In this document: piece after piece, positions 388-39,684 of the stretch
Layout of the letters: each line of letters starts with the position of its first letter
Numbering within the stretch: the first letter of the stretch is position 1
IMG/VR virus record: IMGVR_UViG_3300028840_004609
Location: 1 to 39,684 of that record
Source: a virus
DNA: 39,684 nt
Strand: one strand, 5' to 3'
Translations under genes and position numbers: made by a program
Notes under the pieces: generated by a model
The model's database searches: none
What the model saw: the letters and a program-made list of their open reading frames with translations, nothing else
What the model was told of the DNA's origin: nothing

Positions 388-3300
388 ATGTCAATTAGCA
401 TGACGATTAAATCAGGGACTGCAAGAACTTTCCCTCAACGAGGGGATTCTGATCTCTATGGAGAAGTAACGTCTTGGGCAAATGATGTTACTACAGCGAT
501 AAATGCGGCACCGACTTCAAATCAAACAGCAACTTATGATGCAATTGTTGGTACAGCAGCAAATGTTACTGCTGGCATTGCAACACATTCAGATATTGCT
601 ACAGCGATAGCGGCAGTATCTGCAAATGATCGTATATATATATTAGAAAATACTTATGAGCCAGCAGCTCAAATAGATATAACCAAGGCATTGACTATAA
701 TAGGTCAAGGTGAGGGTGTTGATATACAAGGTGATAACCTTGCTACTGGCGCGGTAGTTAAAATAAGCGCATCCGGTGTTACTTTGGAAAATGTAAAAAT
801 AACACAAGGGACAGGAACACCTACTTATGCTCTAGAAATTGCTGCTGCTGTAGAAAGAATAAATTTAAATATAAAAGCAGACGGAACATTCTCGTCAGGT
901 CTATTTTTAAATGGATCAGACGTGGGTGCTATAACAGGATTTATTGCCTATGATACTAGCTCGGTATTCTTTGGCGGTGAATCTCAAATGGTTGAGCAGG
1001 TAAAAATCCAAGATCAAACAACTGCTGCGTATAACTTAGTTATACAATCGGACTCAACTACACCATTATCAGCAGATAGAATATTAACTATTGATTGCAA
1101 TAATGGTGCCAGAATGCTTGATCTGGCAGAGAATTTCACAATTGGAGATGGTTATAACGTCACTATCACAGCAGAAGACGCAGCTAGCTCAATTGTGCTA
1201 GACGAGCAATCATTTGAAGTAGAGGGTGAGGGAACAGCTACAAGATTATTTAAGTTGATCAACTCATCAGATAGCGCAAGGACGCTTTCTTTTGCCGCAG
1301 ATGTAACAGCTACAGGCAATGGTCTAACGATAGCAGTAGAAGATGCTGCTGGATCTATAACTCTAGATAATTGCTCTATAGAGGTCGAAGATACAATAGG
1401 TTCAGGCAATACTATTAAATTTGTAGTTGGCACAGATGATGCATCTAGAACAGTTACACTCTCCGAAAATCTAACAGTAGGTGACGGAACAGATGTAACA
1501 CTAGTTGCAGAAGACGCAGCTTGTACATTTACAATGGATAATGCTAATGTTGAAGTAGAGAATACTGATGGAACTCAAAGAACTTGGAAGTTCACCTCTG
1601 CTAAAGCTGGCAATACGACAGTAACTCTCCAAGAAGACTTTACTATTGGGGATGGGTCAGCTGTTACTATTACAGCAGAAGATGCTGCTGGGTCTATAAC
1701 TCTAGACAACTGTAGTATTGAGGTAGAGGACACAGTTGGTTCAGGCAATACAATTAAATTCATTATAGGGACAGATGATGCCTCAAGGACAGTGACATTA
1801 TCTGAAAACTTAGTCATAGGTGACGGAGCTGATATTACACTTACCGCAGAAGACGCGGCCAGCTCTGTCACTTTAGATAATTGTTCCTTTGAAGTTGAAG
1901 ATACAATAGGTTCTGGCAATACTATAAAGTTTGTAATTGGTACAGACGATGCCTCTCGAACTGTGACTCTGTCAGAGAATCTAACAATCGGAGATGGAGC
2001 TGATGTAACAATAGTCGCAGAAGATACCGCCGGAACAATAACCCTGGATGAACAAAATTTTGAAGTAGAAGGCGAAGGCACTGCTGCACAGCTAACAAAA
2101 ATTGTTAACGCTAACAATGCTGCTGCTACTTTAACAATAGAAGGAACTAGTGCAAGAGTAAACCAGGATACAACGTCAGATGCTGATGTAAATTTTACGA
2201 CTGTAACTTGCGTTACGGACATTGATACCCCCCTAGTCACTAATGATAGTGCTGACTTAACCCTCAGCACTACCACTAGTGGCAACATAAATATAAATTC
2301 TGTGGATGAAACTGTAATTGTTAGCAGTGGGTCAGCTACTAATGCTACTACTCAAACAGTTAAGTTTGGAGATGACACCGGTGGTATATCTGGAATCAGA
2401 AACTTAAGCGGAGAGTTGCAATACAATTCAGGTGGTGGAGGTTGGACAGCGTTTAATTCAGAGGGAGGTATCAACTATATAACTAATGGTGGAGCTGAAG
2501 TTGATACTACAGGTTGGAGTGCCTACGCTGATGCGGCAGGATCTGTCCCTGTCGATGGGTCAGGTGGAGCGCCGACCGTGACTTGGACGAGAGATACAAC
2601 TACGCCATTAAGAGGGGCGGGGGAATTTGTACTTACCAAGGACGCAGCTGACAGACAAGGAGAAGGCGCAAGCTATAATTTTACAATTGACCCAGCTGAT
2701 ATTCACTCTGTTTTATCAATAAGCTTTGACGCAACTACGTCAGCTAACTATGCAGATGATGATGTGATTGTGTATATATACAATACGGATTCAAGTACTC
2801 TTATAGAGCCAGTTCCGATGGAACTTAAAGCAGGAGAGTACGGTAGGTACTATGCTCAGTTTCAAACAGATGATACTGATACTAACTATAGGTTGATCTT
2901 TCACGTAAGTTCAACTAATGCTGCAGCTTATACAATCAATATAGATAATATTAAGGTAGGGCCGAGTGCTAGGAACTTTGGTGCGCCTATAACAGATTGG
3001 ACTAGTTATACTCCTACTGGATCATGGTCTTCTAATTCTACTTATACAGGATTTTGGAGAAGAGTTGGAAGTAATATGGAAGGACAAGTTCAAATAGCAT
3101 TATCTGGAGCTCCCGATTCTACAGATCTTTCTATAGATATTCCATCTGGATATACTATGGATACTGCAAAATTAGCAACAGCTGTTGGTAATAAAGGTTC
3201 TTTAGGATATGGAACTATAAATGATGCTACAGGATTTGCCTATAATATTCAAGCTAACTATGCAGATACAAATTCTATACAAATAATACATGGAGATAAT

Positions 3301-4356
3301 GTTGGAGGAGCAATAAATGGATTAGTAGATGAATCTAGTCCAATAACTTTTGCAAACAATGATACATTATCTATTTATTTTAATGTTCCAATTCTAGGAT
3401 GGGATAGTTCTGTTCAAATGTCAGACCAAGATGAGACGCGGATTGTAGCTGCACGATATGAAACAAATAATAACGATGAGATGACAAATGCTTCAACGGA
3501 AGTTGTTTGTTTTGAAGACTTAGTATATGACACACATAATGCTGTAAGTTTTACTAATTTTGCAGGACAAGATTGGAAATTTACTGCTCCTATTCATGGT
3601 TTTTATAACATAAATGTTGGTGTATTGCTTTCGGATAATGCAGCATGGGATGTTGATGAAATAGCATATTTAATGGTATGCAAGAATGGAGCAGTTGATT
3701 CATATCTAGATAGATTTGAATGTGATTCGTCTGATCAAGCGGCATTAACCGTTCCTTTAAATGGATCTGCAGATATTGAATTAAATAAAGGTGATTATAT
3801 TGATATTAGGTGTTATCAAGGAAGTGGGGCCAATATAAATCTAATAGCGACAGCTGAATGGAATTATATATCCATTCACCGAATCTCCGGCCCATCTGCA
3901 ATCGCTGCGAACGAGTTAGTTGCTGCGAGATATGATACGGATGCTGGTCAGAGTATTGCGACTGGTGGCTATCACATTGTAGATTTTGATAGTACCACTT
4001 GGGGTTATGATACGCACGGAATCGTAACCACAGGAGCCAGCTTTAAGGCCACAGCGAATATCAGTGGAAGGTTTTCAGTAAAAGCAGGGGTGTTACTTGC
4101 TAGTTCTGCGAACTGGGAGACCGGAGAGACAGCAGAATTAGTTCTTTATAAAAATGGATCGTTTGCAGCCGAATTAGATTATTACAGAATACCAGTCAAT
4201 ACAACAATACTTGTGGGTCTTTTTGGATCGACGGATATTTACTTAAACAAAGGTGATTATGTAGATATTAGGGTGTCTCAAGATAGTGATGCTGCAATAT
4301 CACTTGTTGCAGGAGAAGAGTATAACTGGATGTCAATTCACAGAATAGGATTTTAA
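388..4356 (+). CDS. Large multidomain fibre/appendage protein with beta-helix repeats and tandem C1q-like domains
   Basis: This 1322-residue protein is probably a virion fibre or surface appendage. After a short N-terminal anchor-like region, residues about 70-190 read as a pectin-lyase-like beta-helix (a 'GDNI-type' turn pattern with ILENTYEP and LENVKI). Residues about 245-575 hold six tandem copies of a 55-57-residue beta-rich unit. Residues about 694-865 resemble a carbohydrate-binding jelly roll (TNGGAEVDTTGW opening). Residues about 868-1010 form a WRRVG-type beta domain often seen in phage fibres. Two C1q-like jelly rolls follow (about 1013-1170 and 1171-1322), each ending in a SIHRI motif. 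ATG 388 is preceded by AGAGGG. It follows the capsid gene, which also suits a head fibre. Receptor or glycan binding is inferred, not shown. Base composition shifts sharply between domains, as in mosaic assembly. Confidence 0.75.
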   Translation: MSISMTIKSGTARTFPQRGDSDLYGEVTSWANDVTTAINAAPTSNQTATYDAIVGTAANVTAGIATHSDIATAIAAVSANDRIYILENTYEPAAQIDITKALTIIGQGEGVDIQGDNLATGAVVKISASGVTLENVKITQGTGTPTYALEIAAAVERINLNIKADGTFSSGLFLNGSDVGAITGFIAYDTSSVFFGGESQMVEQVKIQDQTTAAYNLVIQSDSTTPLSADRILTIDCNNGARMLDLAENFTIGDGYNVTITAEDAASSIVLDEQSFEVEGEGTATRLFKLINSSDSARTLSFAADVTATGNGLTIAVEDAAGSITLDNCSIEVEDTIGSGNTIKFVVGTDDASRTVTLSENLTVGDGTDVTLVAEDAACTFTMDNANVEVENTDGTQRTWKFTSAKAGNTTVTLQEDFTIGDGSAVTITAEDAAGSITLDNCSIEVEDTVGSGNTIKFIIGTDDASRTVTLSENLVIGDGADITLTAEDAASSVTLDNCSFEVEDTIGSGNTIKFVIGTDDASRTVTLSENLTIGDGADVTIVAEDTAGTITLDEQNFEVEGEGTAAQLTKIVNANNAAATLTIEGTSARVNQDTTSDADVNFTTVTCVTDIDTPLVTNDSADLTLSTTTSGNININSVDETVIVSSGSATNATTQTVKFGDDTGGISGIRNLSGELQYNSGGGGWTAFNSEGGINYITNGGAEVDTTGWSAYADAAGSVPVDGSGGAPTVTWTRDTTTPLRGAGEFVLTKDAADRQGEGASYNFTIDPADIHSVLSISFDATTSANYADDDVIVYIYNTDSSTLIEPVPMELKAGEYGRYYAQFQTDDTDTNYRLIFHVSSTNAAAYTINIDNIKVGPSARNFGAPITDWTSYTPTGSWSSNSTYTGFWRRVGSNMEGQVQIALSGAPDSTDLSIDIPSGYTMDTAKLATAVGNKGSLGYGTINDATGFAYNIQANYADTNSIQIIHGDNVGGAINGLVDESSPITFANNDTLSIYFNVPILGWDSSVQMSDQDETRIVAARYETNNNDEMTNASTEVVCFEDLVYDTHNAVSFTNFAGQDWKFTAPIHGFYNINVGVLLSDNAAWDVDEIAYLMVCKNGAVDSYLDRFECDSSDQAALTVPLNGSADIELNKGDYIDIRCYQGSGANINLIATAEWNYISIHRISGPSAIAANELVAARYDTDAGQSIATGGYHIVDFDSTTWGYDTHGIVTTGASFKATANISGRFSVKAGVLLASSANWETGETAELVLYKNGSFAAELDYYRIPVNTTILVGLFGSTDIYLNKGDYVDIRVSQDSDAAISLVAGEEYNWMSIHRIGF
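1126..2109 (+). repeat. Six tandem 165-171-bp coding repeats
   Basis: A unit encoding TIGDGADVT, AEDAAGSITLDN and EVEDTIGSGN-type segments recurs six times. Equivalent codons (AED or VED) start at 1171, 1336, 1507, 1675, 1846 and 2017, giving periods of 165, 171, 168, 171 and 171 bp. Copies differ at many synonymous sites, so the array is old or kept diverse. It should form a repetitive beta-solenoid or shaft. Confidence 0.85.
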
Positions 4357-19714: not shown

Positions 19715-22009
19715 ATGAGTAATGGATATAAGCATTATGCTGGATTGCAAGGAACAAAAATCAAGACGGTTGGGAGTGACGCTGACGCATATCAATACAC
19801 CAATCTTGAAACGGCAATTGCCGCATCACAGGCAAACGATGTAATCATTATAGATGATGGCACGTATTCGTTAACAGCAACAAATACCATTAATTATAAT
19901 TTGACTATGATTGGTAGAGGTAACGTTGCTGTAAATTGCGGAACTACAGGAATTGCAACTCGTGGTTTCATGTTAAATAAACCCGCTGCCGGAACAGCAA
20001 ACACTTTAATTACATTTGAAAACATTGCATTTTCTAACGCTCATGCTACAGGTGATGTGTTTGAGATAGACACAGACGGCGGAGCTACCGGGGATATGAA
20101 GGTAGTGTTTAAGGACTGCTCTATAGATGCTGGCGCATCTGCTGTTTCTGTCGATTTAGATCACACTACAGCGACTATCAATCTTTACTTGGAAGTTTAC
20201 GGTAGAGGTGGTTTGACACTAGATAGTATGAACCTAGCTCTTGCTAAAGCGGCTTCACATGTTTATATCGAAGGGTATGACATGAGTGCTTCAGCTTCAA
20301 CGTTTACGCTAGGAACAGGAGACGTTGCTTCAATTTATCAATTCAGAGATTGTATTTTCGGCAGTGCTGCAATTACTACAGGTGGAGCTGCAAGTGTACT
20401 AGTTAGTGCTATCAACTGTGTTAACGAAACTGCAAACGTTCAAAGACAACTAGTTGATGGTGACTTTGATCATACTGGTGTTTTAACAATATCAGATGGA
20501 AGTCAAGCAGGTAACGTTAAATTGATAGTTGGCGCTACTGGAATTACTGAATACTACAATACATTTGAACTAGCTAAAGCTCAAGCAGTAGCTGGGGATA
20601 CTATTGTATTGGGATCAGGTAGTCATACTATTGCTGCAGCAGTAACTTTAAACTTTAACATTACTGTTAGAGGTGAAGGACAATGTACAGTAACTGGTGC
20701 GGTTGCTGATCGACTTTTCATGCTTAACAAACCGGCAACTGGAACTTCAGCTACATACATGGAGTTTGAGAATATTGACTTTGTGAATACAAATAGTTCT
20801 GCTGATATTTTTGAAGTGGACAACGATGGGGCAGGAACCGGAAACCTTGAAATCTTGTGGCGTAATTGCTCTTTCACTGCTGGTGCGACTGGGCTTGCAA
20901 TAGATTTAGACCAAACTACAAATACAATTGATGTTCACGCTAGAGTAATAGGTCATTATGGATTAGCGTTTGATAGTTGTAACTTTGCCTTGTCTAAGGC
21001 AGGCTCAACTGTTTGCGTTGATGGATATGACTTAAGCTCAGGACATACTATAGCGCTAGGAACAGGAGACGTTGCTTCTATTTACACATTTAGAAACTTA
21101 ATCTATGGTTCAGCTGCAAGTATTTCAGGTGGAGCTGCAAGTGTTTTAATGAACCATGTAAACTGTGTTAATGAAACTGCTGGAACATATCAATCATTAC
21201 TTTATGGTGACTTGGATGCTACAGGTACAGAAGTTATCTTAGGTGGTGCTTATGTTTCACCAGTTGTTCACTTAGTAGGTCAATCAGGAGTAGGCGCTCC
21301 ATACGCAACTTTAAACGCCGCAGTGACTGCGGCAGTAGCTGGGGATATAATTGAACTAGAGCCTGGCACACATACAGTAACTACAGATGCGACCATGACT
21401 CTTAATAAGAATATTACTATCAGAGGGAAAGGAAGATGTGTTGTTACTGGTGCGGTTGCTGATCGTATGTTTATGATAAATAAACCTGCGACAGGAACTT
21501 CTGCTACTTATGTTAAGTTAGAGAATTTAAAAATAACAAATAGTACGGCAAGTGCGGACATAGTGGAAATCGATAATGATGGTGGAGGAACTGGTGCGCT
21601 TTACGTAGATATTATCAATTGCTCTATGTCTACAAATTCGGGGCTTTCAATCGATTGTGATCAGACTACAAATACAATTGACGAATTCATTTATGTTAAA
21701 GGTAACTTAAGCGAAGACATGGCAATGGACGGAATGAATTTTGATATATCTAAAGCTGGAAGCGAAGTCTTTTTAGATAACGTTAGATTTAATGCAGCAG
21801 TTATAGCGCTAGGAACTACAAATGTTGCGTGGATTATGTCTATGAAGGACTGCTTGTACGAATCTGAAGCGATGATGACAGGAGGTTCTGCATCTGTGAT
21901 TGTTAACTTGTGGAACTGTATTAGAAATAACGCTGGAACTTATGAAATTCCTGCAGCGGGTGACTTTGATCAGACTTCAGCTAGTGAACAAATACTACCA
22001 GCATCTTAG
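19715..22009 (+). CDS. Triplicated pectin-lyase-like beta-helix protein
   Basis: This 764-residue protein is made of three modules of about 250 residues (starting near 1, 267 and 517). Each opens with an AYATL..A...A..GD-I-L-GTHT pattern typical of right-handed parallel beta-helices, then carries NKPATGTSATY, EIDNDGG and DQTTNTID-type blocks. The ATG follows GGAGGAGGG closely. No catalytic carboxylates can be assigned, so it may be a structural spike, a decoration protein or a polysaccharide-binding tailspike. It shares its opening (YKHYAGL versus YTHYAGL) with the next gene, which is a one-module paralogue. It is probably transcribed apart from the upstream cluster because of the hairpin at 19647. 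Confidence 0.7.
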   Translation: MSNGYKHYAGLQGTKIKTVGSDADAYQYTNLETAIAASQANDVIIIDDGTYSLTATNTINYNLTMIGRGNVAVNCGTTGIATRGFMLNKPAAGTANTLITFENIAFSNAHATGDVFEIDTDGGATGDMKVVFKDCSIDAGASAVSVDLDHTTATINLYLEVYGRGGLTLDSMNLALAKAASHVYIEGYDMSASASTFTLGTGDVASIYQFRDCIFGSAAITTGGAASVLVSAINCVNETANVQRQLVDGDFDHTGVLTISDGSQAGNVKLIVGATGITEYYNTFELAKAQAVAGDTIVLGSGSHTIAAAVTLNFNITVRGEGQCTVTGAVADRLFMLNKPATGTSATYMEFENIDFVNTNSSADIFEVDNDGAGTGNLEILWRNCSFTAGATGLAIDLDQTTNTIDVHARVIGHYGLAFDSCNFALSKAGSTVCVDGYDLSSGHTIALGTGDVASIYTFRNLIYGSAASISGGAASVLMNHVNCVNETAGTYQSLLYGDLDATGTEVILGGAYVSPVVHLVGQSGVGAPYATLNAAVTAAVAGDIIELEPGTHTVTTDATMTLNKNITIRGKGRCVVTGAVADRMFMINKPATGTSATYVKLENLKITNSTASADIVEIDNDGGGTGALYVDIINCSMSTNSGLSIDCDQTTNTIDEFIYVKGNLSEDMAMDGMNFDISKAGSEVFLDNVRFNAAVIALGTTNVAWIMSMKDCLYESEAMMTGGSASVIVNLWNCIRNNAGTYEIPAAGDFDQTSASEQILPAS

Positions 22010-22024
22010 TTTTTATTATATTAA

Positions 22025-22053
22025 GGGAGGGGTTACACTCTCCCACATTTTTT
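22025..22053 (+). terminator. Weak terminator between beta-helix paralogues
   Basis: GGGAG (22025-22029) pairs with CTCCC (22040-22044), and a run of six T follows at 22048-22053, just before the Shine-Dalgarno sequence of the next gene. The T-run followed by GGAGGG repeats the arrangement at 19691-19708, so both beta-helix genes have similar leaders. Confidence 0.5.
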
Positions 22054-22063
22054 GGAGGGAAAA

Positions 22064-22870
22064 ATGGCAACAGGATACACTCATTATGCAGGTTTAAAAT
22101 CTGCGGACATTATTACAGTAGGACCTACTAAGGCGGCAGATGTAGTTAACTATACATCTATTTCAGATGCGTTTGATGCAATGGTTCCTGGTGGGACTAT
22201 GTTAATCTATCCAGGCACGTATTCATTATCAGCAACAGAAACAATTGACTATCCATGTAGCATTATAGGAATTGGTGATGTAACCATTAATGGTGGTACT
22301 GCAGGAGTGGAAGATCGATTAATAATGGTAAACAAACCTGCTGCGGGTACAGTTGCAACTCAAATTTATGTAGAGAATATAAAATTTGTGAATGCGTATT
22401 CTGCAGCTGACGCGGTGGAAATTGATAATGATGGTGGAGCTACTGGAAGTCTAACTACAATTTGGAACATGTGCGGATTTTCTACAAATGCGGGGCTCGC
22501 ATTTGATATAGACCAGACGACGAATACAATTGATGTTTTCCATTATATATATGGTGCAAGACATTTACTTTTGGATGATGACTGCAATTTTGCCTTGTCA
22601 AAAGCTGCATCAGAAGTGCATGTTAGCGGTTATCAGCTAGACGGTGGAGAAACTTTCGTTCTTGGTACAGCAAATGTGGCGTCACTGTATTTTTGGGATA
22701 ACATTATATATTCAGCTACAGCTTTCACGACAGGTGGAGCCGCTAGCATTATAGAAAACTTTACTAACTGTGCTAAAATTGCCAGTGGTGCAATTGCAGC
22801 TTGTGAAATTGGTGATATGGATGCAACAGCAGCATCTGAAAATATTCAAGCTGGAACTTTGGCAGCATAA
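22064..22870 (+). CDS. Single-module beta-helix protein, paralogue of the preceding gene
   Basis: This 268-residue protein is taken from ATG 22064 (GGAGGG at 22054-22059), not from the in-frame TTG at 22052. It matches one module of the 764-residue protein: THYAGLKS, YPGTYSLSATETI, NKPAAGTVATQ, EIDNDGGATG and DQTTNTIDVF. A short form with the same N-terminus could form mixed spikes or compete for the same attachment site. It is the last gene of the rightward structural arm. Confidence 0.7.
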   Translation: MATGYTHYAGLKSADIITVGPTKAADVVNYTSISDAFDAMVPGGTMLIYPGTYSLSATETIDYPCSIIGIGDVTINGGTAGVEDRLIMVNKPAAGTVATQIYVENIKFVNAYSAADAVEIDNDGGATGSLTTIWNMCGFSTNAGLAFDIDQTTNTIDVFHYIYGARHLLLDDDCNFALSKAASEVHVSGYQLDGGETFVLGTANVASLYFWDNIIYSATAFTTGGAASIIENFTNCAKIASGAIAACEIGDMDATAASENIQAGTLAA

Positions 22871-24625: not shown

Positions 24626-25345
24626 ATGAATAAATATAATGGGTATTCGGAAGGAATTTCTAAGAATAACAGAGAGAAAGCGATCTTAAACTACCTGCCT
24701 CTTGTTAAGAAAATAATTAGGAAAATGAATGCTGGGTTTTTGCCAAGAGAAAAAATAGAAGACCTGGTTTCTGCTGGTGTTGAGGGGTTGATAAATGCGG
24801 TAGATAACTTTGACCCTATAAACGGACACTTTTATTTGTATGCAGAAATAAGGATAAAAGGAAGCATAGTTGACTATTGGAGGAAGCAAGACACGATAGG
24901 AAGATATACTAGAATATATCTCAAAAAGATAATAAACTACATAGACTCAAGAAGGAAGATATCAACTGACCCTATTTCCGAAGAAGATTTATATAGACAT
25001 TTAGGCTTAAGTCGAAAGCGTTTTTGCAATGTGATGAAGACGATTGGGAAAGCTGATATTACATACTATGCAGATAGATATTCTTGTTATGAAAGTGTTG
25101 ACCCAGTTACTTCTGTAGGGGCAAAAATTTTAAAAGAAATAGTGTTAAAGGAAATAGAAAAACTAGAACCCAAACAAAGAAAAATTATACTTTTATTATT
25201 CTATGAAAACAAGACAAGCATTGAACTTACCAAGATTTTCAATCTAACTGAAGGAAGAATATCTCAATTAAGGAAGATTGCGCTTAGTAAGTTAAAACGA
25301 AGACTACTACCTCATATACAATATGAGAATCAATTACTTCTTTGA
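24626..25345 (+). CDS. FliA/WhiG-type sigma-70 family factor
   Basis: This 239-residue protein should bind host core RNA polymerase and direct it to alternative promoters. Region 2 spans about residues 18-90, with LPLVKKII, the DLVSAGVEGLINAVDNFDP core-binding helix and the YAEIRIKGSIVDYWRKQD segment that is diagnostic of FliA-type factors. Region 3 spans about 93-145. Region 4 spans about 172-228, with the HTH LTKIFNLTEGRISQLRKIAL. Length matches FliA. It is transcribed rightward against the leftward arm, and its 3' end overlaps the endolysin gene by 16 bases. The start ATG lacks a strong Shine-Dalgarno sequence. I could not find a clear FliA-type promoter (TAAA with GCCGATA) in the intergenic regions, so its target promoters are unknown. 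Confidence 0.9.
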   Translation: MNKYNGYSEGISKNNREKAILNYLPLVKKIIRKMNAGFLPREKIEDLVSAGVEGLINAVDNFDPINGHFYLYAEIRIKGSIVDYWRKQDTIGRYTRIYLKKIINYIDSRRKISTDPISEEDLYRHLGLSRKRFCNVMKTIGKADITYYADRYSCYESVDPVTSVGAKILKEIVLKEIEKLEPKQRKIILLLFYENKTSIELTKIFNLTEGRISQLRKIALSKLKRRLLPHIQYENQLLL

Positions 25346-32909: not shown

Positions 32910-33217
32910 CAGGGGAAAGAATTAAACGGGTTGATCTTATTGAAGGGTTCAATTGGAGGGACGATCTCATGCCAAAGATATATGCAAAATTATTAAAAGA
33001 ACTCCCTACAGATGTAAGTGTATATAAAGTTGCTGAAAGCCCGATAACTAATACTTTCCATGTATATTTAACTTGCTCAAATTGGGACATTATTACAAAA
33101 CTTGGAGATATTCCAGTTATTAGCATACAACTCAATGAAGACAGTCTTGACACGTTAGAATTTAGAAAAATATTGCGATTACATAACAAATATGAATTAT
33201 CCCAATCTCTATCATAA
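32906..33217 (+). CDS. Hypothetical protein between terminase genes
   Basis: This 103-residue protein starts in an ATGA overlap. It mixes helix and strand (FNWRDDLMPKIYAKLLKEL, then TFHVYLTCSNWDIITKL) with no known motif. Its last 26 bases overlap the large terminase start, so translation is coupled. A packaging accessory role is possible. Confidence 0.6.
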   Translation: MTGERIKRVDLIEGFNWRDDLMPKIYAKLLKELPTDVSVYKVAESPITNTFHVYLTCSNWDIITKLGDIPVISIQLNEDSLDTLEFRKILRLHNKYELSQSLS

Positions 33218-34580
33218 CGGCATCATAGCAAGTTGGTATCTTAAAAAATCTCAAATGAAATTCTATGAGATGCTACTAAAAGAAAAGCTGGTTGTAGCTA
33301 AATGTCATAGACGTTTCGGTAAGGGTACTACTGTTCTAACTTATGTAGCAGAGAGATGTCTTAAAGAGAATATTATTGTTAGATACGGAGCGGAAACACA
33401 AGGTCAAGCATATCAAATCTTTGACTTCTTAATGGGAAAGATATTCTACAAATGTCCTGACATGAAGCCTAGACTTAGAAACGGACACTATGAATTTAAG
33501 TCAGGATCTAGAATATATATCTTTGGAGTTAAAGACTCAGGAGAAATTGACAAGGCAAGAGGAACTGAAGCTCATATAATCATTCTAGACGAGTATGGTT
33601 TTTGGAGATTTAAAGCTGAATACATTCTTAAATCTATCTTATTACCTCAGCTTATGAATACCAAAGGGCAGGCGTTGATTACATCGACACCGCCAGAAGA
33701 TTTGACTCACGATTATGTTAATCAAGTAATTAAAGCAGAAAAGGGAGGATATCTATTCAACTGGACTCTCCAAGACTCTGTAAACATAGGTGAAAAAACA
33801 GAGAAAGAAAAGCAAGACATTATCGATGATTGCGGTGGAGAAGATTCTGTTCACTACCAACGTGAGTACATGTGTAATCTTATTCCTACCAAGGAAAGAC
33901 TGGTTATCCCTGAGGCACAAGATGAAGAGTTGTATGTAGGTAAGATGGACAGACCACCACACGTAGAGTTTTATGTTTGTATGGATCTAGGTCTTATTGA
34001 TCATACTGCTGTGCTTTTTGGGTACCTAGACTTTAAAAATTCAAGATTGGTAGTAGAGGATGAATACTGGGCAAACTATAACTCAACTGCCGAGATAGTA
34101 GAAGCGTGCAAAATCAAAGAAAAAAAACTTAAGATGCACGAGATATATAGGCGCATCGGAGACTGTGAAAGACAGCAGCTATGGGATATGTCCAATGATC
34201 ATGGTTATCCGGTAGCACCCATCATTAAGCGCTCTAAACAGTCAGGGAAAGGCTTCAGAGACTCTGTGATTAATCAGCTTAGAGTCGGCATAAAAGAAGG
34301 AAAATTACTTGTAGACCCTGATGGATGTCCCAACACAGTTAGACAACTCAAATATGGTATCTGGAATGAGCGTAGAACTGACTTTGAAAGAACAGAGACT
34401 ATGGGGCACTTAGATGCCTTGATGTCTGTCTGCTATATGTTTGATAACATCTCGTGGGACAGAAACCCATATCCAAGCATGTACCATAAATTAAGAGAAT
34501 CGGACTCCTATATAAATATTGAAGAATTAAGAAACAGAGATAAACAAAGACACGGCCTAAAAAAGCTGACAGGAAGATAG
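33192..34580 (+). CDS. terL: Large terminase subunit
   Basis: This 462-residue motor packages phage DNA into the prohead. The N-terminal ATPase shows a Walker A-like CHRRFGKGT (38-46), Walker B IIILDE (129-134) and the STPP coupling motif (165-168). The C-terminal RNase H-like nuclease shows D265 in YVCMDLGLIDH, an acidic residue near 323-325 (GDCE) and D408 in GHLDAL. Length is normal for a short terminase. The ATG lacks a strong Shine-Dalgarno sequence and relies on overlap with the upstream gene. The Arg-rich Walker A variant HRRFGKG suits podovirus terminases. Confidence 0.93.
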   Translation: MNYPNLYHNGIIASWYLKKSQMKFYEMLLKEKLVVAKCHRRFGKGTTVLTYVAERCLKENIIVRYGAETQGQAYQIFDFLMGKIFYKCPDMKPRLRNGHYEFKSGSRIYIFGVKDSGEIDKARGTEAHIIILDEYGFWRFKAEYILKSILLPQLMNTKGQALITSTPPEDLTHDYVNQVIKAEKGGYLFNWTLQDSVNIGEKTEKEKQDIIDDCGGEDSVHYQREYMCNLIPTKERLVIPEAQDEELYVGKMDRPPHVEFYVCMDLGLIDHTAVLFGYLDFKNSRLVVEDEYWANYNSTAEIVEACKIKEKKLKMHEIYRRIGDCERQQLWDMSNDHGYPVAPIIKRSKQSGKGFRDSVINQLRVGIKEGKLLVDPDGCPNTVRQLKYGIWNERRTDFERTETMGHLDALMSVCYMFDNISWDRNPYPSMYHKLRESDSYINIEELRNRDKQRHGLKKLTGR

Positions 34581-34581
34581 T

Positions 34582-34782
34582 ATGGATGAATCAGTAATTA
34601 TATACAATTTTCGTAATGAACTAAACACCCTTAATTCTGTAATAGAAAGCAAAGGGTTTTCAACAAACTACACTTCAGTACAGAAAGAATCATTCTTCAG
34701 AAGAAGAGACGAATTGAAAGCGTTTCTAGAGAGACGAGATCAACACAGAAAGAATCATTCTTCAGAAGAAGAGACGAATTGA
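34582..34782 (+). pseudogene. Small gene frameshifted by a tandem duplication
   Basis: The present frame gives 66 residues ending HSSEEETN. A 65-bp duplication (34681-34745 and 34746-34809) shifts the frame. If one copy is removed, the frame instead runs on through ERRDQREKSRERIK to TGA 34836-34838, giving about 63 residues and an ATGA overlap with the next gene at 34835. That exact coupling is restored only without the duplication, so the original gene was probably intact until recently. The protein is helical and basic. Function is unknown. Confidence 0.7.
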
Positions 34783-34809
34783 AAGCGTTTCTAGAGAGAC
34801 GAGATCAAC
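34681..34809 (+). repeat. 65-bp tandem duplication
   Basis: The segment starting CAGAAAGAATCATTCTTCAG at 34681 is repeated at 34746, and the copies match for 64 bases. The period, 65, is not a multiple of three. The lack of any mismatch points to a very recent event or to an assembly or population variant. Confidence 0.95.
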
Positions 34810-35063: not shown

Positions 35064-35291
35064 ATGGAAAGAGAAAAACCTTTATTTGTATTTTCTTTTA
35101 AAAGAAAAAAACCAATCCCAACACGTCCTATTTTAATAGGAACAACAGTCTATAGGTGCTCTGCTGATGCCGCTAAAGCACTAGGAGTATCTCAAACAAC
35201 CGTGATCAATAGAATCAAAAGAAAAGCACCAGTTGACGGGAAAATATATAAATATGTTAAAAAAATAAACAAAGGTGTTTACAAAGCTTAG
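35064..35291 (+). CDS. NUMOD1-like small DNA-binding protein
   Basis: This 75-residue protein starts at ATG 35064 behind GGGGGAT. A basic N-terminus is followed by VYRCSADAAKALGVSQTTVI (residues about 29-48) and a final YKYV. This S-DAAKALG-S-TTV pattern is that of NUMOD1-type HTH modules found in homing endonucleases and related DNA-binding tails. No nuclease domain is attached. It may be a relic of an intron-associated endonuclease or an independent regulator. Confidence 0.65.
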   Translation: MEREKPLFVFSFKRKKPIPTRPILIGTTVYRCSADAAKALGVSQTTVINRIKRKAPVDGKIYKYVKKINKGVYKA

Positions 35292-35341: not shown

Positions 35342-37279
35342 ATGGCGTACAGCAAATCAAAAAAGGGCTATATTTTCCTTAAAAAGGGAGATGAGCTCGC
35401 AGCAGAATTAAGTTCTAAAGTAGAAGACTTTCAAGAATACATCCTGAAAAGCGGTATTCATTCGCAGTGGATTAAAAATCAAAGATTCTACGAAAACGAA
35501 TTCTATAACACCGATAAAAGCAGAGACATATCAGATGCCGGAGCTGTTGGAGAGTTAAAAGCGGCCTCCTTCAATCACTTTAGAAATGTTCTAAGGCATA
35601 TGTTAAATCAATTGACAGCTATAACTCCTGCATTCGATGTTAGTGCCTCCAATACAGATGTAGCTTCGAGAAGAGCTGCAAAGATTGGTAAGGACATAGT
35701 CAATTATTACTTCAAAGTCAAAAGAACATCTCGTTATACAAAAAAAGGCGCAGAATATGCCTTGGTTTATGGAGATGGCTATCCTGTTTGTGAATGGAAC
35801 CCTTCAATAGGGAGACAGATAACAAGGAGTGAGGATGGACGGCTTATTAGAGAAGGAGATTTTGATTTTGCTTGCATTTCTCCTTTTAACGCTTTCTTTG
35901 ATTGTACGCTAGATGACAAGGATCACCTCGAATGGTTCATATTTAGAAGGAAGAGAAATAAGTATGATCTAGCTAAGATATTTCCTAAAAAAGCAAAAGA
36001 ATTAGTAGCACTATCAAGTTATTACGACACAGATATATATAACAAAAATAGAACAGATGATGAACAACGTAACATAGAGTCCGATAATGTCTATGTGTAC
36101 AGTATGTATCACGTAGCAAACAATTGCTTGCCCAAAGGTAAGTATTGTATGTTCATAAGTAGTGGTACCGAATCTTTCACCTTGTACGAAGGAGATAATC
36201 TATACGGAGAAAAACTTCCTGTATTCAACTTATCACCTGCTAAATATCTAGATACACCTTTTGGATTTACAGAGGCAAATTTACTACGCGGCCCACAAGA
36301 GATTATCAATCTTATGGTCTCTGCTTTAGTAAGTAATGCTTCTGCCTTAAGTGTGAATAACATATGGGCGCCGACTGGTGCTAATTTAAACTTGCAAGAA
36401 CTAACCGATGGTCTGAACTTGATTACAACAGACCATGACAAGAAGCCTGAGGTATTATCGCTATACCAAGATGTCCCAGGTCTTAAAGACTTACTCTTAC
36501 TATGTAACTCGACCATTGAGACTTTGTCGGGGCAAAACGCCGTAGTAAGAGGCAATGTGCAAGATGCCCCGAATCTTAAGTCGGGTATAGCGATTAGTAC
36601 CGTCATAAATATGGCGCAACAGTATTCTCAAGCATTAGAAAAAGCATATATAGAAATGTTTGAGGATATATCTACTTTCTTAATAGAAACTTTACAAAAA
36701 GTTGCAAACACTGAACGGATGATTGATATCACCGGAAAGATGCAAGCAACATCTGTTAATTCATTTACCAAAGAAGATTTACAAGGAGTTAGTAGAGTTA
36801 TCGTTGATCAGACTAACCCGATAACCAAACAACCAGCAGGAAAGATTGAGATAGCTATGGAGCTATTGAAGTTAGGTCATATAACACCAGAAAGATTCTT
36901 TGACGTTGTGAATACAGGGAACCTAGATGTAGCAGTAGAGTCCGATGAAAGGATGCTCGACTTCATATCTAGTGTTAAAGAAAAACTCTTGGACGGAGAA
37001 GTTATACCTCCTATCCCAGGGATAAATCATCAGATGTACATAAAAGAAATACATTCGTTATTGTATGACACTGAAATTCTTAGCAATGAGAATAATCAGC
37101 AAATCATGCAAAACATTGTAACAACTATACAACAGCAATTAGATATTATGCGTAACGGTGATGAGATTGCCAATCTAATTTATGGTGGTAAATCACCAAC
37201 GCCAACAGCTATAAGTCAGGCGGAAATGCAACCGCAAATGCCGCCAAGTTTAAATGCTGCGGGGCAAGTTCCAGTTTAA
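35342..37279 (+). CDS. Portal protein
   Basis: This 645-residue protein forms the ring at the packaging vertex. The start is ATG 35342 behind AAGGAGGGG. Typical portal features are the N-terminal helix region (SKVEDFQEYILKSG, QWIKNQRFYENEF), the FNHFRNVLRHMLNQLTAITP segment, ALVYGDGYPVCEW, the central helix-rich stem (SALVSNASALSVNN, TIETLSGQNAVVRG) and a Gln/Pro-rich C-terminus. Size and place between terminase and scaffold support this strongly. Confidence 0.85.
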   Translation: MAYSKSKKGYIFLKKGDELAAELSSKVEDFQEYILKSGIHSQWIKNQRFYENEFYNTDKSRDISDAGAVGELKAASFNHFRNVLRHMLNQLTAITPAFDVSASNTDVASRRAAKIGKDIVNYYFKVKRTSRYTKKGAEYALVYGDGYPVCEWNPSIGRQITRSEDGRLIREGDFDFACISPFNAFFDCTLDDKDHLEWFIFRRKRNKYDLAKIFPKKAKELVALSSYYDTDIYNKNRTDDEQRNIESDNVYVYSMYHVANNCLPKGKYCMFISSGTESFTLYEGDNLYGEKLPVFNLSPAKYLDTPFGFTEANLLRGPQEIINLMVSALVSNASALSVNNIWAPTGANLNLQELTDGLNLITTDHDKKPEVLSLYQDVPGLKDLLLLCNSTIETLSGQNAVVRGNVQDAPNLKSGIAISTVINMAQQYSQALEKAYIEMFEDISTFLIETLQKVANTERMIDITGKMQATSVNSFTKEDLQGVSRVIVDQTNPITKQPAGKIEIAMELLKLGHITPERFFDVVNTGNLDVAVESDERMLDFISSVKEKLLDGEVIPPIPGINHQMYIKEIHSLLYDTEILSNENNQQIMQNIVTTIQQQLDIMRNGDEIANLIYGGKSPTPTAISQAEMQPQMPPSLNAAGQVPV

Positions 37280-38365: not shown

Positions 38366-39532
38366 ATGTCAACAAACTCGATGACAACTCTGACAGGATA
38401 TTTTAAGACCGCATATGCTGATAGAGTTGAAGATTTAACACCTGATAATGTTTATTACGCTAAAGAGATTCCGGATGTTCCAGCTGATCAACAGCCAGGA
38501 GGAACTTACACACAGCCAGTAACGCTGACCAGTGAGCAAGGAATTACAAAAGCAGCTGCAAGTGCAGGGGCGTTCGCTTTGAACTCTCCAATAGCAATGG
38601 CAACTGGTAACGCTACTATAAACGGATCTCAATTCCTACTTAGGTCAGGTCTTGATTACGAAACTATTTTTAGATCACAGAATAAAAATAGTTTTATCAG
38701 AGCTACTAAGGGTGTTATTAAGAACATGCTTAAGTCTGCATATTTTTATATGGAATCAGATTTAATGTGGGGTACACAAGGTATTGGTACTGTTTCTAGT
38801 GTTTCTACTAACACTATTACTTTAACAACTGCTGAATTTGCAGCTGGACTATGGTTAGGTTCAGAAAACAGAAGACTAAGAATTGAATCTTCTGCTGGTG
38901 TTCTTAGAGGAACTTGTGCTGTGTCTTCATATGACATTGCCGGTAGAACTGTAACAGTTGATTCTGCTCCTGCAGGTTTAACAAGTACAGACGTTATCTA
39001 TTTTGAAGCTGATGGAGCTGCCGGAGCAAACTGTATGACTGGAATTTACGACATACTAACTCCTGCATCAGGCGCTTTCATGGGTATCAACGATAGTACA
39101 TATAGTCTTTGGGCGCCATTAACTGCTTTCGGTGCTGGAAGTGCTCCACTATCTTTCAACAAAATCTTACTTGCTATCGCTGGATCAGTTAACAAAGGTC
39201 TTGGAGATGACATCAAAGAGATTGAAGTTGTAGTTAACCCATTAGCATGGCAAAACTTAGGCAACGACCTTGCTTCACTTAGAGCTATTGATAGTTCATG
39301 GAAATCAGAAGAAGCTACTAATGGCTCTGAAATGATTACCTTCTTCTGTCAAGCAGGGAAAGTTAAAATCATTCCTCATAAAATGATGAAAGAAGGATAT
39401 GCATTTGTACATCCTAAAGCATCAAGATTCTTTGAAAGAGTAGGTTGTCAATCAACTCCAACTTTCAAGTTACCTGGAATGGTAAACGCAGGTGAAGAAC
39501 AATATCTTCGCCCAATGGAAAATAATGCGGGT
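38366..39532 (+). CDS. Major capsid protein, exon 1 (389 residues)
   Basis: This is the shell subunit, starting at ATG 38366 behind AAGGAG. The sequence suits an HK97-fold podovirus capsid protein: N-terminal arm, then SFIRATKGVIKNMLKSAYFY and an inserted beta region (VSSVSTNTITL, TVDSAPAGLTSTD). It continues with IKEIEVVVNPLAWQNLGNDL and a C-terminal VKIIPHKMMKEGYAFVHP region. Exon 1 ends at U39532 after ENNAG, and splicing joins it to exon 2 at 248 for 419 residues in all. Without splicing the frame runs on to TAA at 39560-39562 and replaces the final strand with RRELCPVVA. Confidence 0.88.
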
Positions 39533-39684
39533 AGACGTGAGTTATGCCCGGTGGTTGCGTAAGTAATCACGAGAACTGGGGAAAAAACGGGAACCCTAAG
39601 CCGGAGAAATGGTAAGGGAATCCGAGCGGAAGTCAGAAGTTAACATCTCTGACACGCGCAACGCATAGAGGGTGAACCTAGAAA
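39533..39684 (+). ncRNA. Group I intron in the major capsid gene (5' part)
   Basis: The intron begins after U39532. P1 is CGGGU (39528-39532, exon) with GCCCG (39546-39550, internal guide), and the splice-site U pairs with G39546 as the required U-G wobble. P10 is UUAU (39542-39545) with AUAG at the start of exon 2. Bases from 39551 repeat the window start, so only 39533-39550 (18 nt) are unique to this end. With 1-247 they make 265 nt. Confidence 0.88.
39551..39684. repeat. Terminal direct repeat, right copy
   Basis: This copy is identical to bases 1-134. It lies wholly inside the intron and shows that the two window ends are adjacent in the genome. Confidence 0.95.

Follow-up and report, generated by a model that had tools for sequence, protein, structure and literature searches.

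A predicted 265-nt group I intron without an open reading frame in the major capsid gene of a circular tailed-phage record

The stretch of DNA analyzed here, referred to as the window, comprises all 39,684 nt of the IMG/VR record IMGVR_UViG_3300028840_004609. Its ends are identical, with bases 1 to 134 matching bases 39551 to 39684 exactly, and the record therefore closes into a 39,550-bp circle, in which the segment from 39551 to 39684 (+) is a second copy of the first 134 bases and lies within the putative intron described below. The major capsid gene is located downstream of the terminase (33192 to 34580) and portal (35342 to 37279) genes. Among the other features of the window are 2 long ORFs (388 to 4356 and 19715 to 22870) with imperfect internal repeats (e.g., units of 239 nt and of 127 to 147 nt, 71% to 76% alike), which are probably fibre or spike proteins, and a sigma-70-type factor (24626 to 25345, +), recognized by Pfam through its regions 2 and 4, that perhaps serves the phage's own transcription programme. 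Furthermore, a near-perfect tandem duplication of 65 nt (97%; 34675 to 34804) straddles the end of a short ORF (34582 to 34782) downstream of the terminase gene.

Exon 1 of the capsid gene (38366 to 39532, +; codons 1 to 389) was assigned through its match to phrog_14242, a major head protein family in PHROG (E 1.4e-5, compared to E 6e-12 for the capsid relative from contig L002) as well as through alignment with intron-free relatives. Read without splicing, the capsid ORF extends from 38366 to 39562 and encodes 398 aa ending in ...NNAGRRELCPVVA (RRELCPVVA), with its last part, including the stop codon TAA, being the exon 1 frame continued into the insert (39533 to 39562, +). The same capsid gene is uninterrupted in 2 viral contigs, L002 and L003, which thus have an empty intron site. 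A predicted splice joining 39532 to 248, between codons 389 and 390 (GGT|ATA), would connect exon 1 to exon 2 (248 to 340, +; 30 codons and TAG) and yield a capsid protein of 419 aa, which aligns with those of L002 (61% identity) and L003 (59% identity) without a gap across ...YLRPMENNAG|IETRLYW.... A third group of relatives (L034 and L035, 44% identity) also aligns over capsid residues 1 to 417. The proposal of the first-pass annotation that splicing from 39532 to 248 restores an in-frame capsid C-terminus is thus matched by the uninterrupted gene in L002 and L003; for the position close to the 3′ end of the gene, which it had considered unusual, no special meaning is evident. Since no capsid relatives were found in genome_contigs, the host was left unassigned.

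The insert consists of bases 39533 to 39550 (18 nt, +) followed by bases 1 to 247 (247 nt, +), amounting to 265 nt with G247 as the final base, and, in view of the 134-nt end identity, it spans the circle junction within the major capsid gene as suggested before. Its first 18 nt contain the P1 loop and a guide with a P10 strand (39542 to 39545) and a P1 strand (39546 to 39550), which pair with both exons. P1 (CGGGU/GCCCG) includes a U-G pair at the 5′ splice site (U39532-G39546), which is the same in 9 introns of the family, and P10 is formed by UUAU of the guide and AUAG at 248 to 251, with 4 of 4 positions paired. Both guide pairings sit exactly at the splice sites that the protein alignment fixes.

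The join from 39550 to 1 is supported by the 134-nt overlap, by a sister contig of the same overlap geometry (92 nt), and by the gene order in intron-free relatives, as the capsid gene of L002 and L003 is followed by a gene resembling the spike-like ORF at 388 to 4356 of the window, which therefore provides independent support. The sister phage (contig IMGVR_UViG_3300017963_000459; loci L001, L013, L015, and L043) carries this intron as well, inserted at the identical site. None of the stored contigs covers the intron from end to end; the window ends inside it, as does the sister contig. Such breaks would be expected if the insert were an intron fragment shared with other phages in the sample, erroneously joined to a capsid gene that is not split in this way, and within the 15 kb compared, the longest stretch identical between both phages, 154 nt, is indeed located in the intron; this long shared stretch is also a possible explanation for why both contigs break there. 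However, exon 1 is directly continuous with the intron, and the intron with exon 2, in both contigs, the guide pairing fits exactly these 2 exons, and the capsid and spike-like genes are adjacent in L002 and L003, which renders an assembly artefact very improbable.

The remaining 247 nt of the insert (1 to 247, +) can be traced as a complete series of helices. P2 (1-8/13-20) is followed by the strands of P3 (26-32/157-163), P4 (38-41/71-74), P5 with an extension (44-47/65-68), P6 (76-78/107-109), and P6a (82-87/98-103). P7 (113-117/185-189) forms a pseudoknot with P3, and an extra helix composed of P7.1 (118-122/146-150) and P7.1a (128-130/135-137) is inserted between P7 and P3, giving the intron an IA-like layout. 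P8 is short (4 bp; 165-168/173-176), and P9 (194-200/205-211) and P9.1 (214-220/229-235) complete the structure. Folding of the 5′ exon end together with the intron returned P1, P2, P3 to P6a, P7.1, P7.1a, P8, P9, and P9.1, while both P7 strands remained single-stranded, as the P3/P7 pseudoknot requires. The minimum free energy corresponds to a z-score of −4.07, and none of 200 shuffled sequences was equally stable. The elements listed in the first-pass annotation, namely P1 to P10, the U-G pair at the 5′ splice site, the last-base G, and the extra helix between P7 and P3, are therefore all present.

Related introns were gathered by pattern search and blastn, and an alignment of 15 introns, including those of the window and its sister, was made. 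Their covariation score was reached by none of 500 shuffles, with P3, P6a, P7.1, P8, P9, and P9.1 as covarying helices. P7 pairs in all 15 introns though it is nearly invariant, and its pair G113-C189, the putative guanosine-binding pair, is likewise conserved in 15 of 15. Pairing between cognate strands exceeded that between strands exchanged among introns for P3 (99% vs. 60%), P7.1 (100% vs. 61%), P7.1a (100% vs. 73%), P8 (100% vs. 48%), and P9 (100% vs. 69%). It should be noted that the values of 99% for P3 and 100% for P8 were obtained by tracing strand by strand by eye, which leans towards structure and is controlled by the exchanged strands; in a plain MAFFT alignment, pairing of P3 and P8 was only about 50%, which represents a register shift. 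P1 is complete with cognate strands compared to approximately 59% with exchanged strands in 9 family introns, a comparison that leaves aside L016 and L019 (unclear exon boundaries) as well as L024, L026, L027, and L030 (P1 weakly or not traceable).

Furthermore, a covariance model, R1, was built from the 13 other phage introns of this alignment, excluding those of the window and its sister and with 13 nt of the P7.1a loop of L028 taken out by hand. R1 matches the window at 38 to 241 with 173.4 bits (E 1.9e-42), the next match to an unrelated place having E 0.45, and since its introns stem partly from searches seeded with the window intron, this result is independent in sequence, not in sampling. 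R1 also matches introns that Rfam classes as group I. By blastn, the 3′ half of the intron is similar to introns of crAss-like, Clostridioides, and Staphylococcus phages (best E 2e-20); an exact 25-nt pattern taken from this half had no match in viral contigs. The Rfam model RF00028 (Intron_gpI), suggested earlier as a check, gave no match on the unjoined record, including a scan of 1 to 600, which contains 247 of the 265 intron nt. Even with E-values up to 10, it found nothing in L014, L018, L025, L028, and L029; in the last 3 of these, the neighbouring genes are annotated as fragments of a capsid or terminase gene, and endonucleases lie close by. Because RF00028 misses related loci too, and a published survey describes Rfam's model of group I introns as incomplete (PMC11878797), the Rfam negative represents insensitivity of the model and says little against a group I intron. 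The first-pass annotation had named the lack of any covariance-model hit as evidence against its proposal; this holds to the letter for Rfam but not in substance.

An intron of this kind could in principle be a degenerate relic that no longer splices, in which case the capsid protein would be the 398-aa form ending in RRELCPVVA, and the unspliced frame is indeed short, with a clean end. However, the core helices are all intact, and the 5 differences between the introns of the window and its sister all concern unpaired positions outside the traced helices. Moreover, intron-free relatives conserve the exon 2 residues that would be absent from an unspliced product, and the amino acids encoded by exon 2 are identical in the 2 phages, with synonymous changes only. 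A dead intron is therefore a highly unlikely alternative. Similarly, partial splicing might generate 2 capsid forms with different C-termini, a regulatory role for which the unspliced frame, open for 9 codons before its stop, would provide the basis. Yet the read-through ends differ between the phages (AGACGTGAG vs. ATACGTGCG) and have no recognized counterpart, and we consider such a role just as improbable as that of a relic.

Thus, we conclude with a probability of roughly 95% that the insert is a 265-nt ORF-less, IA-like group I intron that interrupts the major capsid gene of a tailed phage whose circular record measures about 39.55 kb; its splicing chemistry and splicing in cells are deduced from the general behaviour of group I introns. 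At the level of sequence, this reading is carried by the break in the gene together with the empty site that relatives have there, by pairings at both splice sites, by covariation within the core, and by homology to other phage introns. A split of the capsid gene at 39532|248 by a group I intron, as first proposed, is accordingly upheld by the pairings, the covariation, the R1 match, and the gapless spliced protein, and the intron is structurally complete and probably active. In the predicted reaction, the guide would pair with the end of exon 1 (P1, with the U-G pair at the cut) and the start of exon 2 (P10). The first attack, by a P7-bound guanosine, would occur after U39532, and the U released there would carry out the second, after G247, which would bring codons 389 and 390 together in the frame of the 419-aa capsid protein.

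What is new here is that a sister phage approximately 80% identical overall carries a 98%-identical intron, with divergence falling towards the insertion site. Over 15.1 kb aligned to the sister, 265-nt windows have a mean identity of 79.5% (sd 4.8), compared to 98.1% for the intron and 86.4% for the most similar window at a distance of over 300 nt. Synonymous differences per codon decrease from 0.37–0.47 far from the site to 0.10–0.20 adjoining it (11/71 codons near vs. 124/330 far, p = 3e-4). This drop resembles co-conversion in homing and suggests recent homing or recombination between related phages. Alternatively, the high identity of the intron could reflect strong constraint on the ribozyme instead of recent transfer, which would be in line with the restriction of all 5 differences to unpaired positions and with the conservation of the intron core across the family. 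However, loops and peripheral helices vary widely in related introns yet are nearly identical here, and constraint on the intron does not explain the scarcity of synonymous differences in the flanking exons; we therefore regard this explanation as unlikely, albeit less so than the alternatives considered above.

As for the means of a recent move, the 265 nt contain no ORF, the first-pass annotation having already noted the lack of an endonuclease, and the sister intron is without an endonuclease as well. PF13392, PF01541, and PF14528 had no match in the window or the sister genome, and a Pfam scan of the larger window ORFs revealed no endonuclease. The sole free-standing endonuclease-like candidate found in the window is a 75-aa ORF between the terminase and portal genes (35064 to 35291, +) with a DNA-binding domain of the I-TevI type (PF20987, 27.8 bits) and a weak match to NUMOD1; as this ORF has a DNA-binding domain and no nuclease domain, it was rejected as a free-standing endonuclease. 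A weaker match of the same kind occurs in a similar place of the sister phage. Since no endonuclease was found in either genome, one has to assume either a nuclease supplied in trans or simple recombination, and the intron may have moved between the related phages by homing with an outside endonuclease or by recombination during coinfection. Tentatively, and at slightly less than even odds, we propose that this endonuclease-free intron is still mobile between phages of ~80% identity, by means of a nuclease from elsewhere (e.g., a coinfecting phage), and that it takes adjoining capsid sequence with it, which would result in capsid gene conversion.

Introns of the same lineage are found in other capsid genes. 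In L005, L009, L014, L018, and L023, ORF-less introns of 223 to 230 nt follow codon 9 to 18 of phrog_267 capsid genes. Like the window intron, they belong to the same family (178 to 187 bits with R1), lack an endonuclease, and interrupt a major head protein gene in phase 0; in contrast to it, they are shorter, have no P7.1a hairpin and apparently no P2, and reside in a different capsid family. Given these relatives, 265 nt is an ordinary size and not near the lower limit as previously supposed. Since Rfam misses them, their capsid genes would be annotated without a start. One lineage of small ORF-less introns therefore interrupts capsid genes of unrelated uncultivated phages while escaping Rfam's group I model, so that in metagenomes, capsid genes may be recorded as truncated or absent, and the island of identity between the window and its sister suggests that such introns are still spreading. 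In L012 (4306 to 5400, −), a related intron splits the gene of a phage P-loop ATPase within its Walker A motif (PKT|GKTT) and contains a LAGLIDADG-like ORF, which suggests ORF gain or loss within this intron lineage.

Introns in capsid genes, considered unusual in the first-pass annotation, have already been described (PMC3706429, PMC7886860). For the capsid intron of LittleE (mycobacteriophage cluster J), splicing was established by RT-PCR and protein sequencing, and the same report covers a capsid intron of Tuc2009 and a tail intron of BAKA (PMC3706429). The LittleE intron shares its location in a phage capsid gene with that of the window, and the BAKA intron its length of 265 bp; compared by description, the LittleE intron differs in its size (819 bp), its endonuclease, and its location at the site of capsid processing (PMC3706429). 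Capsid genes of crAss-like phages carry several introns (PMC7886860). Those of uncultured phage cr128_1 and bajarodcaudo virus 1 resemble the window intron in belonging to the R1 family (L028, 140 bits; L025, 170 bits), in their capsid host gene, and in having P7.1, whereas they differ by the presence of several introns per gene, endonuclease ORFs between the gene fragments, and a different capsid family and insertion site. Subgroup IA phage introns (T4 td/nrd, Twort, and Bastillevirinae; PMC11878797) likewise have an extra helix between P7 and P3 and occur in protein-coding genes of tailed phages, but they mostly interrupt DNA-metabolism genes and usually contain an endonuclease ORF, and the window intron is only IA-like. 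Taken together, the intron is a well-supported further example of a known mobile intron type and not a novel type of system.
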